A stretch of DNA of 64,000 nucleotides, taken from the NCBI GenBank assembly GCA_002118135.1, contig BDIU01000256.1, positions 2,773 through 66,772 on the forward strand, written 5' to 3'. The DNA comes from Trebouxia sp. TZW2008 (Eukaryota; Chlorophyta; Trebouxiophyceae; Trebouxiales; Trebouxiaceae). The notes beneath the pieces are model-generated. The model saw only the letters and a list, made by a program, of their open reading frames with translations. It was not told where the DNA came from and did not search any database. Within the stretch, counting starts at the first letter, position 1; the number at the start of each line of letters is the position of its first letter. Below are positions 28,345 to 39,013 of the stretch, piece by piece. The position numbers were made by a program, and so were the translations under genes.

Positions 28345-29235
28345 GTCACCCTGGGCCAGAGTGTCTTGAGCCTGCTGACAGCTGCTTGGCAAAATTGCCT
28401 CTGGCATATAGCGCTTGCTGTTGCGCCTGCAATACCATTGGTGGCAGCAGAAAGCCCCTGTTTTCTATCTTGCGTGCAGCCTGAGCTCATCGGCAACTGC
28501 TTGCTGCCCAGTGCAGATGGGACGCAGACTGTGTCAGCCCACAGTGGCTTCTGAGCAGTGGCTTCGGAGCTGACAGCTGCACATCTATTGTTTGCGGCAT
28601 GCTTTGATTCCCTTGCTGCTGATGATGGCTCTGCCAGCTGCTCTTGGGACCTGAGTTGGAAGCTACAGCACCCATCGATGCAGCATGCTTTCTGTTCCTT
28701 GCTGCTTGGCAAAGACCCCATGGAGGCGCTGTTGCTAAGATGGAGGCGGTGTGACATGCAGTTGTTGCCGTACACTCAACGTGGACATGCTATCACTTCC
28801 TTGCTCTTTGGCAAGGATCCCATCCAGATGCTGTTCCCGAGGCACAGATGCTCTGATCTCAGGTCAGGTCTGCAATGCACCTTTTTGCCCTGCATATTGG
28901 TTACGCCTAGCATCTGACGACCACTCCCTTGAAAGGCTTTTGTTGACACAAAGGCGCCCTGAGTTGAGATCCAAGCTGCAGCTAGACCTTGCCCAGCGTG
29001 CTAGCAAACTCCTTGATGCTTAGCAAAACAGCAGCTATGTGAGTCCTTCCTTTGAGCATGCTCATCTGATGGCAAACGCTTGCCCAGCATGTTGGCAACT
29101 GCTCGCTGCTTGACAAAGTCTCCTGGGGGCGCTGTTGCTGGGGCAATTTGAGCTAGCTTGAAGCTGCCATTAGACTTTGCCAAGCATGTTGGCAACTGCT
29201 TTGCGCTAGACACAAGGTGCCGTCCAACGCTGCTG
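28345..29235 (-). repeat. Array of decayed copies of the last Kir exon edge
   Basis: The 3' edge of the terminal Kir exon (29278-29335, with CATGCTTGGCAAGG on the minus strand) is repeated downstream about seven to nine times. The clearest copies are at 29160-29220, 29040-29140 and 28973-29032. Weaker ones lie near 28800-28830, 28690-28740, 28590-28635 and 28480-28520. The 28973-29032 copy even keeps the following GTCTAGCTGCAGC. Confidence 0.75.
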
Positions 29236-29277
29236 CTGCCAAACCCGAGCTGTTACCGCTCAGCATCAAGGCTGCAG

Positions 29278-32200
29278 CTAGACCTTGCCAAGCATGTTGG
29301 CCACTCCTTGATGCTTAGCGAAGAAGGGCAGCCAGGTGCGCTCCTTCTTGTGGGCGTGCTCATCTGATGGCAAAGCCCGGGAAGCACGGAAGGAGCCTGG
29401 GCGCCAGCTGTGTGGGAGGGAATGCACGGTCTGCTCTGCAGAGTATGGTATGGTCGTGGCGCTCTGACTTGACGCTGCATGCCAAAAACAAGTTGCTCAG
29501 CAAGGCAAAAAATTGAAAATTGAGCATCACTAAGCGACAAACTTAGTAGAATCAACATCAAAACAATCATCAAAGCGATCAATGTACAAAACCCTTCTTT
29601 GTTGTTGAAGCAAAAGCTGGGACACAAGCAGAGCATTTGTGACCTGTTGAATATCAGGCAACCCTACCAATTGAGATACAATGCGCCCTGACAAAGACCA
29701 TGTCTGCATGCAATGCATGGCCGTAGAGCCTGACTTCAGACCCTGAATGAGTTGTACCTGAAGTGCGCCACAGCCCCATCAGGTTATCCAGATGGCTAGA
29801 ATGGTTTCTGCTCAGCGGCTCCACAGGCACAGTGACATGAAAGCCTGTCCAGTCCACTCGGGGCTTTCTGTCTGTGGGTGTCGGCGCAGACACAATCGGC
29901 TGGAAGACGTGGTTAGGCTGAATGTTCTGGTGTGTGTGAAAGAAGCCCATGCGGATGTCCTTCTTCTGGTCATTGCCAGCATACTTGTAGCCCTCCAGCT
30001 GCAGATGAATGCCAGTCAATCAAATGTTTTGTCAGTATACATACAGAGCAGGCAAAGTTGAGTCAGCAGTTTCAAGGGTCTTATCAAGAGCAAGCCATGT
30101 GACTAGCAAAGGTGGGGCTGGCTTTCATGTTGTGCCAGATGTGACACAGGCCAATGTTACACGTGTGCCACATCAATCATGTACGCATGGCCTCAAGCAC
30201 CAATGAGTCGTATAGTACAGCAAAACATGCACCACAAAAGAGCCCGACACTCAGTCAGTGAACCTGAGGCACAATAAACGGGTTGATTCAGCAGCAGCAT
30301 TGATCGTTGACACATTGGGCAGCTTCTGTGATGTGGCTTCAAGTTCACGTTGACCTAATCTTTCATTCCCATTTAAAATTTCTTACAGGCAATGTGTCAC
30401 GTGCCGCCAAGTTCCAAGACAAATACTACACAGTCTGTACAGCACGCCATGTGACTAAAGCATGCATCACGCAGGATGCAAAAGCGTTGAACAATAACCA
30501 TCACAACTTTCATTCAGGCCTTGAAAGCTTCCTGCATGAGGCTATGCTGCATGGTGTAGCCTTTGGGATCAAGAGTCTTACCATCACAACAATGGTAGTG
30601 TCTGCATCTTTCAGAGCATCCTCTGGCTCTGACTTCCAATTACATAGCGGTGAGTCATCATCAATCACATGGGTGATAGTCATGGGCAGCCACAGCAGCA
30701 GCCGATCTTCTCCTGTACGGAAGCCCACATCAAGCGTCTGAGCTCGGTAGTCCTACACACATCAACAGCACAGTCACGATGACATATAAAACTGTTGCAG
30801 ACAAGTTGGTGGTCGATGATACAACACACGGCAATAGTAAGGCCAGCCTGACAAGTATCATTGCTACGGACAAGACCTGTCAGATACTGCAAGCAATTGT
30901 GTCTTTGGAGCGCCATCAACTGTCAAAACCATGTCAAACAACGTTTTTAAGATAGGCAATGACTAGCCTCGAAAACACACCAAGCTAATCACACAGAAGG
31001 TGCAAACATGCTGCAGGCACTATATGAGTAGCTGGCATGCAATACTGTTGGGTTTGCAACAGCACTTGCAGGGCAAATGATGCGCAGGCAGCCTTGCAAA
31101 ATCCCTAATTGTAGCAAAGGCCATTTTGCTTTGTGGTGCAGGGCGCTGTGGTACAAGGCATGATGGTGCAGGACACTGAGGTACGGACTTCTGGAAAACA
31201 CCTGACATTATGACTCATCGGGTTCTGAGTTTGATCATAGAAAGCAAAAAACACCTGAAAACCGTGGTCCCTACAACCTAAGCAACTTCCTGAACAAAAT
31301 AAGTCAATTTTTGTACCTAGGGGTTTTCCAACCCTAGCGCCCAAAGCCCAATGACTGGAACGTCAGGCCTGTAGTACAGGACACAATGCCACAGGGCATT
31401 AGGGCCCAGAGCATACAAAACTGACCTGTGGCACTCCAGAAGCGTCCCGATCCAGCCAACGATAGATCTGCACACGCACTGTGATGCCCACATGCTGATT
31501 GGGGTAGGTATCCCTGCAGGGCATTCACACCTGATGAATTCTATGCCAAGTCATGTCACTTCCATTCATTCTAGACGTATGCTAGACAAGCTCAACAGGC
31601 TCAGCAGGCCCAGCTAGGTACATGCTGAAGCAATCAACTGTCTCCGACCAGTTTGGTCCTGTGCTATTCTAAACCTCTTTGCTAAGTGACCACCCAAAAT
31701 AGCTGCAGTGCAAGCATGAACAGCAGGATGTTGTTCCACTGCAATGCTGACAAGCCTGTGATGGCACCTGTTTGGCAAAAAGCTGTGTGACAAAGAACTT
31801 CACGTGAAATTGCCCTTCTGCCAGCTTGCAGCAAGGCAGCAAGTTGCCTGATCTGCTGTGAAGATTGCGCCAATGCTGGGTAAAAGACAAGATGACAGGA
31901 GGGACATGAGGCAACGGAGCAAGCAAGGTCCATCACATGAGATGAAACGGGCAGGGGAGGGCAAGACTCAGCAGTGCAGGATGGGGCAGGGGGATTCAGG
32001 GCAGGGAAACTTAGGGAAGAGGAAGTCAGGGGAAGGAAATCAGGACAGGACAGATCAGGGCAGGGCAGGGCAGATCAAGGTGGGGCAGGGCAAAATTTAG
32101 GAAGGCAGGGGAGACTGAACGTACCCGACTCTGAACTGCAGCCTGGGATGCTCTTTGCCTGAGCCGTGATTGAGCACCAAGCTGCTGCTGATGACAAAGG

Positions 32201-35200
32201 TGTTCTCGTTCAGCAAGGGGTATGGGATGCTGTCAGGGCTGGCGTGCAGGGTTTGATAGCATGCCTGGCTCTGATTCAAGCCCTCAAAGCCAATCAATGG
32301 CGTCACCTCATGAAACCTGCATACAGCAGAAGCCGAATGTCAGTGTTGAAAGACACCAGCATTCTTGAATGTTAACCTGGCGCCGAACTGGAGTGTATGA
32401 GCAGCTTGCTTAGACTTGATGACTTCCAACCCCTTTGGTACTGCAGTGATAGCAAGTCCAATAACAGCTGCACAATTTGGCTGAAATAAGGACAGACGCA
32501 TGCAAGACAGCATCTGCAACACATGACATCAACTGATGAACTTGACCCGTAGAAGTCAATTGCGCCCGTCACAAGACATTCAGGCAGTCCAACATTCTGC
32601 AATGCATGACGCAGAGAGAGACTTGCCCTAAAGAGTCAATGGTGTGTTGCCAGAAGTAGCAAGACCCAGGATTTCCAGCAGCAGCTGTTAAACTCGCTGA
32701 AACAAGAGCCCAGTGATGACACACAGTGTGTACAGTGCACAAAAGAAACAAAGGAACTTACCCTGAGAAGTCAATGGTGTACTGTGTCTTGCCAGGAGCA
32801 GGGTGACCCAACATGTCCTTGAAACAGTGTCCCCACCGCAGCTCATTCGGCAGGTAAGACTGTCGGGCCATGAAGTCATTGCCAAACTCTGTTGTGCCCT
32901 CAAAGGTGATGATGATCTCTGCATTCACCTGCGTCAACACAAGTAAAACTCAGACAAGCTGGCCTGGCAAGACAAGCCTCGCATAGCTGGTGCCTGTGCT
33001 ACAGTGTTTGAAAAAGACTTTCACAAATCTGGATTTGCAATGTATTGATGTCAGGGTAACCTGGTCATGTGTGTCTTGGAGAAATCAGCTGAGATGAGGT
33101 GATCATAAGCCAAACCTTTGATGCAATGAAGGATTCTGCAGCATGAGCCAGAACAAGCTAATAGATGAAACAGGGCAATGTGCAAAGGTGCAATATTGTC
33201 TGACTTACCCTGAATCATGGAAAGCCATCATTGTCTTGATGTGGCAAGAGCAGCTGCACAGCAGAAAGCAACATGGTGCACTACATCTGCTGAGACAACA
33301 CAAAGTTCACAGTTGAAGGCAGGCAAGACTGTCATAGACCAATTCTAGCTAGACAAACCATGTATACACCGAGTGCAGGAATGTCTGCATCAGCCAGTCA
33401 TCACGTACCGCCATCAGGGATTCATGTGAGTGGCTGCACAGGGGGCTACGCTCATCAATCATGTGTTCCTCCACTAGCGGCAGCAGCAGCATGCCGTCAA
33501 TGTAGCCAATGTCCAAGTCCTCAATCTTGGCAGGAATGCGGTCCCCCTCAGCTGTGTAGCGGGGCTTGCCCCAAGTGTACAGATAAGCTTTGACCCTGGG
33601 CGCTATCACCTGTATATGACAGCAGCAGCATGCGGTCAATGTGCCCAATGTCTGAGTCCTCAATCATGGCGAGAATGCAAACATTCTCAGCTGTGGGCAG
33701 TCCCTTTGTGCACATGAAACTTTTTGCTCTAGGAGCTGTCATGTACGTCATAGCGGGTATGTATACAACATGCATTTGAAGCCTGAAAAAGAGGCCATGC
33801 ATGTGTATGCACATGCAGCATTGCGACAAAGAGCTAGATAAAGTCGCACTCAGCACAGAACTGATTCTGCAGAAAGCCTACAAAATACATGACCATGATA
33901 CATGAATGGTATTATTGCTTACTGACCTGTGTTTGCCGGATGTCCGCAATCCTGAACATGAATTTGAGAAGGCCGTCTCGCCGGGCAATGACAGCAGAGT
34001 CGGAGATGGCTATGGTGCGGCCTCGCTGCTGAGGGTATGAAACCCTAGAGAAGATGATACCCACGGTCACAGCATTCAGGATCATGCCCATAATCTGATG
34101 GACAATGAGCAGCCAAGCGCCTTGCCAGCATTCATTGGGGTATGTGTTGCCATAGCCTGCATGGCAAAACAGGATGTGAGCCGCACGCACCTGATACTTG
34201 TGCAAAACCTGCAAATGATGATGGTAGACACTAACACATCCTGCATTTTGCATTGCGCTTGAGCAAGAAGGCAGGCAACTAATTGATCAACCAGAAATTC
34301 AGGGCCATCAGAAATGTCAGCAACTTCAGGAGCCATCAAACTTATGAGACACATACGCCTCCGTAGCATGACAGGAGGGGCCGCAACAAGATCACAGGAG
34401 GCTCTATAATACTGCAACTGAACTTGGAAACAGGAAGGCCAGGACTGACATGGCTGACAGCAGGTCAGAACAGCTGGATGACTGCAAAGAATTGCTCATG
34501 TAGTTGCATGATGCAGCATTACATCTGATGAGCACTCTCACCTATAGTCTGCACAGTTATGACAGAGAAGATGTAACCTGCCACAAAGCCATACTCATTT
34601 GACCCGTTCTGTACACAGTTGTTGTCCTCCCTGCATGTAAATCAGAGGGCTGACTGTCAACACAGCACATGCATCCTGTTCTTGTCTTGCAACACTGAGC
34701 AGGGTGCTTGCTGAACGCACTGCATCTGCTCAAAGAATGATTGTCTGTGAAGCAAGCGAAGCTGAATGCAAGCGGCTGACACCAAACGAAACCAAATGCT
34801 AGTACTGCGGGAGAGTTTGATTGCAGGCAAACTGTCGCAACAACTACTCCAGGCTACATGCGAGGCACTGTGACAACACAGACTGTCATACATTGAACAG
34901 GCAGGTGACGATCTGCACTTCAGGATTGATTGACAGTCAAGATGCTTGTGTAGTCAGGCAGAGGGGACTTACGCAAGCTCTGCCCACCACAGCACCCCAA
35001 AGAGGAAAAAGGTAGCTGTATAGACTAGGCAGATGAAAGCTACCACTATTGCAAAGTGGGTGTTGAGCGAGCTGTGAAAGAAGTCTGCATACCATAACCC
35101 TCATGTTACTCAGCAGCAGTCTGGTTATGGTCTCAAAGTGAAAGTATGATGATGAGCAGACCCCACCGGATGCAAAATTGCACAGCAGCATACCTTTGCT

Positions 35201-35806
35201 CCATTCATGTACGACTAGTGAGTAGTGTTGCATGAATTGTATCCTTGAGCGCCCTGCATGTCTGCAGTCAGCAGCAAATGCTTGCACACCAAGGAGACAA
35301 CAGCTTGTTAAGCCAAACAATCATTGCATTGACAGTTGCATTGTGAGCATGAGTCGCGTTGGATGCTGCCACAGCAAAGGAAACCGGGGATACAAGCAAT
35401 GTCACAAGCATCTGGATGCCTGCATGCGGCTCAATGCCTTTCGCAGGATACATACTTGCCAGTAGCCACAAGCGCAGGCTCTTTTGTTTTCATGCGGTAG
35501 GCCTCATTCTGCTCTGAACCTTTGTCTGGGCTCCAGCCTAAACTCAAAGGCAGGCAACACAGGCTCATTTGGCACACCAGAAAAAGCTTGTATGTTCAAT
35601 GTAAGCCAAGGCACAAGCTGACCTCTGCCCTTGTGATAGATGGAAACCACGAAGCCCTTCAGCCAAATTGGTATTCTTGGGTGAGGCATAGACTGTAGCC
35701 TTTTGGTCGAGGGAAAGACATTTGTGACGCCAGAGCCGGCAAACTCTACGGTGGCTTTGCTGTTGAGTAAGGATTCCTTGAACTTTCGAGAGAAGTAGCT
35801 GGTCAT
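29278..35806 (-). CDS. Inward-rectifier K+ channel with two tandem Kir cytoplasmic domains, about 640 aa
   Basis: A K+-selective channel subunit; family members are tetrameric. Twelve exons: 35623-35806, 35456-35519, 34973-35071, 34542-34630, 33927-34156, 33409-33609, 32762-32928, 32125-32316, 31426-31513, 30582-30752, 29758-29998 and 29278-29474, totalling 1923 nt in phase. TM1 lies at about 86-108, the pore helix and filter VQTIGYG end at about 148, and TM2 is LIVHQIMGMILNAVTVGIIF. Cytoplasmic domain 1 (about 177-350) contains SDSAVIARRDG, FMFRIAD, FEGTTEFGNDF and TIDFSGFHEV. A second Kir cytoplasmic domain (about 370-565) follows: LQFRVGD, LDVGFRTGEDRLLLWLP, THVIDDDSPL, LEGYKYAGND and VDWTGFHV. 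The order of motifs is the same in both. The tail (576-640) is unique and ends at a TAG right after GKV; reading through a donor there would extend it. Membrane location is unknown. Confidence 0.88.
31570..31668 (+). repeat. Dispersed repeat R1, copy 3
   Basis: The best-preserved R1 copy: TTCCATTCATT, CTCAACAGGCTCAGCAGGCC, CAGCTAGGTA and CAATCAACTGTCTCCGACCA. It lies in a Kir intron. Confidence 0.8.
31950..32105. repeat. GGGCAG/GGACAGG low-complexity tract
   Basis: Purine-rich, G-rich degenerate repeat on the + strand in a Kir intron, ending 20 bp before the exon at 32125. G-runs are mostly three to four long. Confidence 0.8.
32536..32678 (-). repeat. Two downstream copies of the donor edge of a Kir exon
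   Basis: The exon 32762-32928 ends with ATTGACTTCTCAGG and the donor GTAAGT. Similar sequence recurs near 32618-32675 and 32538-32595, with the donor altered. Confidence 0.7.
33614..33748 (-). repeat. Upstream copy of most of Kir exon 33409-33609
   Basis: About 125 bp repeating 33482-33612 at around 75-80% identity by eye. It covers the acceptor side and the codons for RVKAYLYTWGKPRYTAEGDR through DLDIGYIDGMLLLP. The copy retains the order but carries substitutions; whether it is spliced cannot be judged. Confidence 0.85.
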
Positions 35807-36496: not shown

Positions 36497-39013
36497 CTAC
36501 CTTGCATTACCATTTTGGTTCCAGAAATAAGTTATTTCATCCCACCCAGTGCTAGCAAGCATGCCTTCAGACAGCGAGCTGAAATCCAATCCAACAGCAA
36601 ATTCTGTGTGATGGTCCCAGACACGCAGTTGACTGTCTTCTGGAGCTGCAGTGTCCCATAACCTCACTGTCATGTCATAGCTGCAAGATGCCAGAATGGT
36701 CTCTGCATGCGGTGAGTAGACAACTTTCCTCACAGCATACCTGCGTGCCACATAGCAAAGGTAAACTGATGCTTCCTTCTTCTTTGAGCTTGAAGTGATA
36801 GTTGCGCCAATATGTACGTATTGCAGTCATGGAATGGAACGCTGAAGCCTTGCTTGCTCATCACTTGCCTACTCACAACTACCGGGTATAAGGAACATGA
36901 ACAAACAAAGCAGATATGACAATCACCATCAGGCTACAATGGAGACTTAGCAAGCTGGCAGTGTCAATTCTGCATTTGCTTGTCTGACTGACACTCAGTG
37001 ACCTACAAAGATGTATGGACCCGGACACGATGCAGCAGGTACTTACCCATGACCAAAGAGCGTCAACAGCTCCTGACCAGGATTTCGCAGATCCCAGATC
37101 TTGATGCTCTTGTCAACTGATCCGGTGGCAATGATGCAGTCGTTGTATTTGCACCAGTCGGCTGTCAGAATCTCATTTTGATGGGCAGCAATGGTCATTG
37201 AGGAGACGGGCTTTCTGGCATCCCAGATCTTGAGCGCATGATCACCTGATGCTGACAGGAAGATGTCTGCACTAGCGGGATTCCTGCACGGCAGAAAAAA
37301 GACAGGAGTCAGCTCTGATGATGCAACATGCCTCGTATCATCATCCATTTCGAGATGCTTGCTAGTATGGTTTCATGCCCCTGACAAGGCTGCACATGCT
37401 GAGTGCCTTCCTGGCTCTTCACATGCCACATGTTGAGTGCTTCAGACTTAGCGGCCTCGTTTTCAGGAGCAGCAACTTGCTCAGCTGCATTTGACGTCAG
37501 CATGGCAACCATGCCCACTCAGCATGCATTGATGCCAGCAAATACTGGCTTGCGTGTTATGCCAAGAAGGATGGTTCATTTGCTTGGACGTTGAATGCAA
37601 GGCTGAGGGAGCTTTCTCAGCAAGAGACCAGCAATACACAGACCCCAATGTGAGCAGCTGTGGGTTTTGCTGGATGCATGAGCAATATGCTTGTTTGACC
37701 AGTGCTGTTGTGATGGGCCAATCAGCCATTGACATTCCTTTTGTAGCCAAGCTGACCTGATCTGTGTGAACAACAGATTGCATGCTGCAATATTGTCTAG
37801 TATGGCATGCTTCTTGCAGGGCGCAAAAGCTTCTTTGTTGTTGCAATGCAGAAGAATCATGTGGGCTCACCAATTGGCAGCATACACACAGTAAGTGTGC
37901 TCAGCAAATGTGGCAACTGACTCAGGCCGCTGTATGTCCCAAAGCTTGATTGTGTCATCCCAGCTACCGCTCAGAAACAGATTCCTGTGCGACATATTCC
38001 AGTTCAAGGCATACACCTGCAACCAGGCACTGCTTTCAGGCACAACGTTGCACAGAGCCTTCGGGTGAAAGTTGCCATGTATCTCTTGCCTGCATATGCT
38101 AGAATTACTCCTGCATACTGCGTGAATATTGTATGTCTGGATGCAGAAGTTGAGCAAGAGAGCATGCAAATATCCTGCCTTGTGAGTGGCTGCACCTCTG
38201 GGTACTATGGCACTATTTGGAGTAAGCAGTATGCTATGTTCGCTGTGCATGCAGCCCTTGTTGCAGCATACATGCATAGAGTTTGATGCAGGACCTCTCT
38301 TGTGTGTTCCTCTAAGCTTCTGAGCGGGTTGGCCTGTGGTGGCGCTGCCAGATCCCAGATTTTGATGCTGCCGTCCCCGCTGGCTGACGCAAGGATGTTT
38401 TCATTGTCCTGCAGGCAAGAATCACCATCAACAGCAGCAGCAGCAGCGACAGCAGCAGCTTTCTGTGATTGTGGCGGAGCTTTACAAACCTGCTAGGTGC
38501 ATCCGGAAGCGACAGGCGGCATGCAGGCATATACAAGGCTTCCATGCATTGCATGTTGAGCACAGCAGGGCGTGGGATGCAGCCAAACCTTGGTCAATGC
38601 ATGCATCAACTGTTGTATTTGTCCTCAACTTCTGTGCATCATGTCAAGTACCAGTGATGCATATTCAGCTTTGGATGCAGCATGATCAGCTGCACAGCAG
38701 AGGCAGCCGAACATACGCACGGTGCATGTCTCTGGAATGCATACCTCACTCCATGCACAATCATATAGTCCATCCTTGGTGTCAAACATGGCGACCTGTA
38801 CCAGGCCTTGTTGTGTAGCCTGCAATATCCAAGATGACTCATATGCATGCTTACACATGGTGGTGCAAGCAGCACTTGAAACTGTACCTGCAATACATAC
38901 TGCCTGCCGTTGCCGATTATACCAAAGTTCTGGGATGTTGCAACAGCCAATCTTCCATCCTCGAACGGCGAAAACTTGACAGCATAGCCGTTAAAGTCTG
39001 TCTTGAATAGCAT
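36497..39013 (-). CDS. PEX7: Peroxin 7, PTS2 import receptor (WD40), 313 aa
   Basis: Cytosolic receptor that binds PTS2 signals (R-L-x5-H-L type) and carries matrix enzymes to peroxisomes with PEX5. Six exons: 38888-39013, 38745-38819, 38295-38408, 37871-38016, 37047-37283 and 36497-36740, totalling 942 nt in phase. The protein is a WD40 propeller: GYAVKFSPFEDGRLAVATSQ at the N-terminus, then SASGDGSIKIWD, SGSWDDTIKLWD, SASGDHALKIWD, TGSVDKSIKIWDLRN and ASCSYDMTVRLWD, and the family's HHTEFAVGLDFS near the end. The length agrees with plant PEX7 (about 317 aa). The gene lies head to head with IPMS. Confidence 0.96.

Follow-up and report, generated by a model that had tools for sequence, protein, structure and literature searches.

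Can a subunit of a potassium channel of the Kir type carry two cytoplasmic domains (CTDs) instead of one? The question is raised by a gene of the green alga Trebouxia sp. TZW2008, which lies on the minus strand at 35806..29278 of a 64,000-nucleotide stretch of contig C244 (assembly G000, 68.5 Mb), the window of this study. Animal Kirs such as Kir2.2, Kir3.2 (GIRK2) and Kir6.2 have one CTD per subunit, whereas the protein of the window gene has two. As corrected here, the gene has 13 exons, a coding sequence of 2022 nt including the stop codon and a product of 673 residues. The original prediction, made from the DNA letters, placed one pore and two Kir CTDs in one reading frame; profile searches, the predicted fold of an ortholog and the relatives of the protein support it, and we hold it to be very nearly certain that the window gene encodes a two-CTD Kir subunit. 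Its product is predicted, with high probability, to work as a K+ channel.

One pore and two cytoplasmic domains

In a Pfam hmmscan of the corrected protein, the Kir transmembrane family PF01007 matches once (E 1.6e-12), giving two transmembrane helices (TM1 and TM2) with a TIGYG K+ filter between them, and IRK_C (PF17655) matches in two stretches (E 1.1e-47), the pair of significant cytoplasmic matches that had been anticipated. A first run had used a 643-residue splice, as did the search for relatives, with the same Pfam result. The β-rich, Kir-type CTD1 directly follows TM2. Both domains are IRK_C, no RCK (TrkA) family being among the Pfam matches, and with two of them the protein departs from the single CTD per subunit of a canonical Kir. 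Across 70 aligned pores, that of the window gene included, both filter-flanking cysteines are invariant, and conservation at the filter positions is 94-100%.

The second domain, CTD2, is recognizable in its own right. Alone it scores 56.9 bits against IRK_C (E 2.7e-15; cut-off 22.5), and a profile built only from 64 first copies gives it 63.4 bits, the highest of 1000 shuffles reaching 6.4. Within the window protein, CTD1 and CTD2 align over 178 columns with 28% identity (E 1.2e-19, for this single comparison). The predicted structure of the ortholog matches Kir3.2 and shows two Kir cytoplasmic domains, CTD2 having the same predicted fold, and a linker of some tens of residues joins the two. 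Finally, a six-frame profile scan of the whole window located one pore set (exons 3-6), first-copy matches in exons 6-8 and second-copy matches in exons 9-12, and no pore exons between CTD1 and CTD2. The arrangement named at the outset as fatal to the prediction, a second domain in a separate mRNA with pore exons of its own, is thus not what the window holds, its only pore set lying upstream of CTD1.

Spread and history of the layout

On the sequences compared, the pore-CTD1-CTD2 layout is no singular case but an old arrangement shared widely among green algae. Two protein searches gave 104 relatives, 96 of them with two CTDs, and in 77 of these 96 the pore stands in the same sequence. The searches were limited to relatives of similar length with shared exact words, so that short green-algal Kirs with one CTD are under-represented, and the proportion of 96/104 leans toward the double form. 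One CTD was found in the remaining eight: five short or partial entries (P0071, P0080, P0082, P0090 and P0093), the insect Kir of Nesidiocoris (P0102) and two proteins of 303 and 314 residues. A third search added eight proteins, six with one CTD (P0107-P0112) and two whose second CTD is degraded (P0105 and P0106), so that all 112 proteins divide into 96 with two CTDs, 2 with a degraded second CTD and 14 with one. P0107-P0112 have long inserts and a TIGWG filter in place of TIGYG, and they adjoin the degraded-CTD2 proteins P0081, P0105 and P0106 in the tree. Pfam found two IRK_C stretches in all seven tandem proteins tried and one in each of three P0107-type proteins.

The same layout, sought in other algae, proved to be present in many green ones. 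The two-CTD proteins come from Trebouxia, Coccomyxa, Apatococcus, Symbiochloris, Elliptochloris, Myrmecia, Chlorella, Micractinium, Parachlorella, Auxenochlorella, Helicosporidium, Prototheca, Picochlorum, Nannochloris, Haematococcus, Tetradesmus, Pseudoscourfieldia, Chlamydomonas incerta, C. schloesseri, Edaphochlamys, Volvox, Gonium and Pleodorina. The order of the window protein recurs, for example, in P0001 (Trebouxia), P0019 (Chlorella variabilis), P0068 (Volvox carteri) and P0073 (Pseudoscourfieldia), and P0057, from a record named as transcriptome set MMETSP0804, has the pore and two CTDs in one open reading frame (ORF). The records of the tandem relatives mostly read hypothetical protein or E set domain-containing or bear generic Kir names, and their tails vary. 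Among the papers ranked first in literature searches, whose reach largely excluded subscription journals, none describes an algal or tandem Kir with this layout; for Picochlorum, the available part of a paper on the genome gives the number of inward rectifier K+ channels as two, without comment on their domains (PMC11092101). The window gene is no quirk of one genome; it belongs to a well-known channel family, of which it is a conserved variant. Under generic genome labels, this K+ channel family is present in green algae, among them Trebouxia, a lichen partner, and the colorless Prototheca and Helicosporidium. Because the layout is kept in the latter two, which are non-photosynthetic, it probably serves a role independent of photosynthesis.

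For the history of the duplication, 151 CTD segments from at most 83 source proteins were collected; the segments of 17 proteins were dropped (fragments, near-duplicates and three divergent ones) and Kir3.2 was added, leaving 129 rows. In the resulting tree, all 61 second copies form a clade (support 95), as do all 64 first copies (100), and the two domains of the window protein (win_N and win_C) fall among the first and second copies, respectively. Outside both clades lie Kir3.2, the insect Kir, P0103 and a divergent Kir on contig C211 of the Trebouxia genome. In a smaller tree of 61 hand-chosen rows, first and second copies stand together apart from the outgroups (98), and the second copies group at 89. 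KirBac channels, as which P0103 and P0104 were taken from their length only, have one CTD and fall outside the clade of both algal copies (98). The simplest reading would be one internal duplication of the CTD before the sampled lineages spread, followed in the P0081/P0105-P0112 group by the loss or decay of CTD2.

What the second domain may do

The best overall explanation, toward which we lean with modest confidence, is a Kir-type subunit of green algae in which the CTD was duplicated once, long ago, within one protein, CTD2 serving as second tier and regulatory layer. Four such subunits would assemble as other Kirs do into a K+-selective, Kir-like tetramer. CTD1, joined to TM2, would form the usual ring under the membrane and drive the gate. 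CTD2 would form a collar deeper in the cytoplasm, where it would make the ion vestibule longer and richer in acidic residues, and would add a layer of regulation by a ligand, a partner or rectification, as RCK2 adds to RCK1 in Slo and GsuK. Eight CTDs per tetramer in a double ring are a plausible candidate arrangement; that CTD2 is stacked as a second ring, not hanging at the side, seems to us an even call. A fuller picture, of "double-decker" Kirs with two stacked rings and eight CTDs, arising by internal duplication near the green-algal base, in which CTD1 keeps the membrane-side gating contacts and CTD2 supplies the vestibule mouth and a new sensing surface, is offered tentatively, its chances falling a little short of even. 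If true, it would be the Kir counterpart of the tandem-RCK gating ring.

The likeness to tandem-RCK channels (Slo/BK and GsuK) is one of principle and no more: behind the pore stands a cytoplasmic regulatory domain that is present twice per subunit and eight times per tetramer. In those channels, the eight domains of the four subunits form a ring, and in GsuK ligand sites lie on RCK2, according to the available part of PMC3510474. The modules themselves differ, the one being a Rossmann-type RCK domain and the other a Kir CTD that is not homologous to it, and an octamer of CTDs is putative here. The comparison suggests that stacking a regulatory domain after the pore was adopted by Kir-type as well as RCK channels. 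The Kir structures that were matched have one CTD per subunit, and an old, widespread two-CTD family offers a comparison for the control of gating and block by the vestibule.

The residues kept in each copy bear on how CTD2 is placed. Rather than joining a second ring, it could have the Kir CTD fold and form no ring at all, lying beside or below CTD1 as a peripheral lobe that serves as a scaffold or as the binding site of a partner or small molecule, an alternative that we consider less likely than not. Kir2.1 residue numbers, E138/R148 included, were placed on the alignment, and 64 first copies were compared with 61 second copies. In Kirs, E303 and R312 lie near the G-loop and subunit contacts. 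An E303-like residue is present in 62/64 first copies and at most 4/61 second copies, an R312-like residue in 60/64 and at most 2/61, and the E299-like position is E in 60/64 and 21/61. These losses from CTD2 favor a peripheral lobe, and the length of the linker would permit such placements. Against it, the H and S of HxIDxxSPL are kept in every first and every second copy (64/64 and 61/61), the FRVGD aspartate in 56 of the 61 second copies, and the pore-facing E224-like acid in 42/64 first and 45/61 second copies. This conservation in CTD2 is easier to explain if CTD2, too, lines an axis.

For a CTD2 stacked as a second tier, the distal hairpin is also relevant. The distal aspartates of Kir2.1 are reportedly described by Pegan et al. 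in 2005. The hairpin has four residues or fewer in 62/64 first copies and seven or more in 48/61 second copies, and a D259-like acid occurs in 1/64 first copies versus 47/61 second copies. In the available part of PMC4145359, which is also our source for the roles of D172, E224, E299, D255 and D259 in Kir2.1, the D255-D259 distal hairpin is the "lower ring" near the cytoplasmic entrance and E299 is the acid of the "upper ring." The pattern of residues fits, indirectly, CTD1 as a putative membrane-side, gate-coupled domain and CTD2 as a putative new cytoplasmic mouth.

Several observations weigh against this explanation. First, a short hairpin is not specific to CTD1, because the short one-CTD Kir P0103 has one of 4 residues and 13/61 second copies have four or fewer, and a long CTD1 hairpin is kept in the early-branching P0073 and in P0047. 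Second, at the TM2 rectification controller about 50% of 70 relatives have D and about 28% have E (D/E in about 78%), and the window gene has N; its E224-like position is A in CTD1 and G in CTD2. Strong rectification is therefore doubtful for the window paralog, which may rectify weakly. Third, the filter-flanking salt bridge, conserved in Kirs according to the available part of PMC4145359, is absent from the window gene. Compared with animal Kirs, then, the window paralog lacks both this bridge and an acidic controller, and its CTD1 lacks the D255-D259 hairpin. Fourth, the first-copy group with the P0107-type proteins included has a support of only 58 in the 61-row tree, a weak monophyly, and CTD2 is dispensable in the P0107-P0112 group, since that group keeps one CTD. 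Finally, the fold model of P0073 is of low confidence (pLDDT 63.4, pTM 0.43), and it does not test CTD2 because its 50 listed matches all start upstream of or in CTD1.

Exon structure of the gene

The motif order, strand and outer coordinates first given for the gene were borne out, and the exons 32928-32762, 32316-32125, 31513-31426 and 30752-30582, whose joins had been singled out for checking, are all there, their splice sites usable and their phases closing. The earlier count of 12 exons and 1923 nt is not the best model: it missed the exon at 35537-35456, and the acceptor of the next exon is 35261. The 13-exon model (Table 1) replaces it because alignment with orthologs exposed both. The corrected protein is 76.9% identical to its closest protein, P0001 of Trebouxia sp. 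C0006, over residues 14-672, versus 74% for the 643-residue, 12-exon splice without exon 2.

Table 1. Exons of the two-CTD Kir gene in the window
Exon and content	Position	Strand	Evidence
Exon 1, start codon and N-terminal cytoplasmic tail	35623..35806	-	ATG at 35806, donor GTCAGC; P0001 alignment
Exon 2, 82 nt, GWSPDKGSEQNEAYRMKTKEPALVATG	35456..35537	-	Gapless on ortholog GWTPDKGS...LVSTG; phases 1 and 2; AG acceptor, GT donor
Exon 3, N-terminal segment KHAGRSRIQFMQHY, approach to TM1	35194..35261	-	Acceptor 35261, not 35253; family consensus TGxHAGRSRV
Exon 4, slide-helix region and TM1	34973..35084	-	TM profile match 35097-34978, E 1.8e-9
Exon 5, pore helix, first pore cysteine, filter start (TIG)	34542..34630	-	TM profile 34635-34540, E 4.6e-7
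Exon 6, filter remainder (YG), second pore cysteine, TM2, CTD1 start	33927..34156	-	TM profile 34166-34026, E 7.2e-20; first-copy profile 34031-33921, E 9.9e-18
Exon 7, CTD1 (LDIGYIDGMLLLPL, HMIDERSPL)	33409..33609	-	First-copy profile, E 9.1e-33
Exon 8, CTD1 (FEGTTEFGND, ARQSYLPNELRWGH, IDFSG)	32762..32928	-	First-copy profile, E 1.1e-23
Exon 9, CTD1 end, linker, first CTD2 strand (ENTFVISSSLVL, FRVG)	32125..32316	-	Second-copy profile 32207-32124, E 2.7e-4; ortholog alignment
Exon 10, CTD2 (GDTYPNQHVGITVRVQIYRW)	31426..31513	-	Second-copy profile, E 1.9e-7
Exon 11, CTD2 (LDVGFRTGEDRLLLWLP, HVIDDDSPL)	30582..30752	-	Second-copy profile, E 2.1e-21
Exon 12, CTD2 (LEGYKYAGND, VDWTGFH) and tail start	29758..29998	-	Second-copy profile, E 4.6e-14
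Exon 13, C-terminal tail and stop codon	29278..29474	-	Tail alignable to P0001-P0003; stop TAG

That the gene is a pseudogene or decaying copy, as a decayed copy of exon 7 and degenerate last-exon repeats past the stop codon might suggest, is very improbable and was rejected: none of the 13 exons is interrupted or out of phase, their splice sites are usable, and the 76.9% identity to the ortholog extends over nearly the full length. Two neighboring genes, or a fusion made in prediction with CTD2 in another mRNA, have a next to negligible chance: the exons of the window gene were joined from sequence alone, but this reading was rejected on the window scan with no pore exon between the CTDs, on exon 9, which itself spans the end of CTD1, the linker and the first CTD2 strand, and on the relatives, the same order recurring in 96/104 of them, in two paralogs on other contigs and in the continuous ORFs of P0003 (571 residues; longest contig 2929 nt, versus about 6.5 kb for the window gene) and P0057 (MMETSP).

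Within the gene, intron 6 contains a decayed, partial extra copy of exon 7 at 33781-33614 on the minus strand (first-copy profile, E 0.006), with MIEDSDIGHIDRMLLLSY adjoining KIEDLDIGYIDGMLLLPL. The end of the last coding exon has four degenerate copies in 28975-29309, spaced 91-108 bp apart and 62-85% alike, three of them past the stop codon. A pattern search of intron 8 for repeats of the end of exon 8, allowing up to 3 mismatches, matched the exon itself only. Equal intron positions in the two CTDs were considered as a trace of exon-block duplication and dismissed, as by eye the intron before LEGYKYAGND in CTD2 lies some residues off its CTD1 counterpart.

Paralogs and neighboring sequence

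IRK_C matches occur on four contigs of the alga's own genome. Besides the window gene, contigs C322 and C359 have a pore followed by CTD1 and then CTD2, and their exons are up to 100% identical to P0005 for C322 and up to 94% to P0013 for C359. The divergent Kir of contig C211 (L014, 3258-4660) has one CTD and a TIGYG filter, and thus the same alga has both one- and two-CTD Kirs. The last exon of the C211 gene (VVRRASDGMLAV...) is repeated farther downstream.

In the C359 paralog (L012, minus strand, about 4695-3834), the exon for the linker and first CTD2 strand lies in a tandem array of 4.9 copies of about 175 bp with 83% matches, the arrayed exons being putative alternative or dead exons. 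A CTD1 exon of the same gene is duplicated (5567-5391 and 5364-5203), the second copy being degraded. An isolated weak CTD match on C359 (L016, 3757-3834, plus strand; E 7.7e-4), about 5 kb from the gene and on the opposite strand, is possibly a fragment. On C322 (L013), a second partial copy of a CTD2 exon at 3816-3709 stands beside the intact one at 4030-3836. In the window, the next gene upstream, on the same strand as the Kir gene (36500-37372, minus), encodes WD40 repeats and presumably resembles a PEX7-type receptor.
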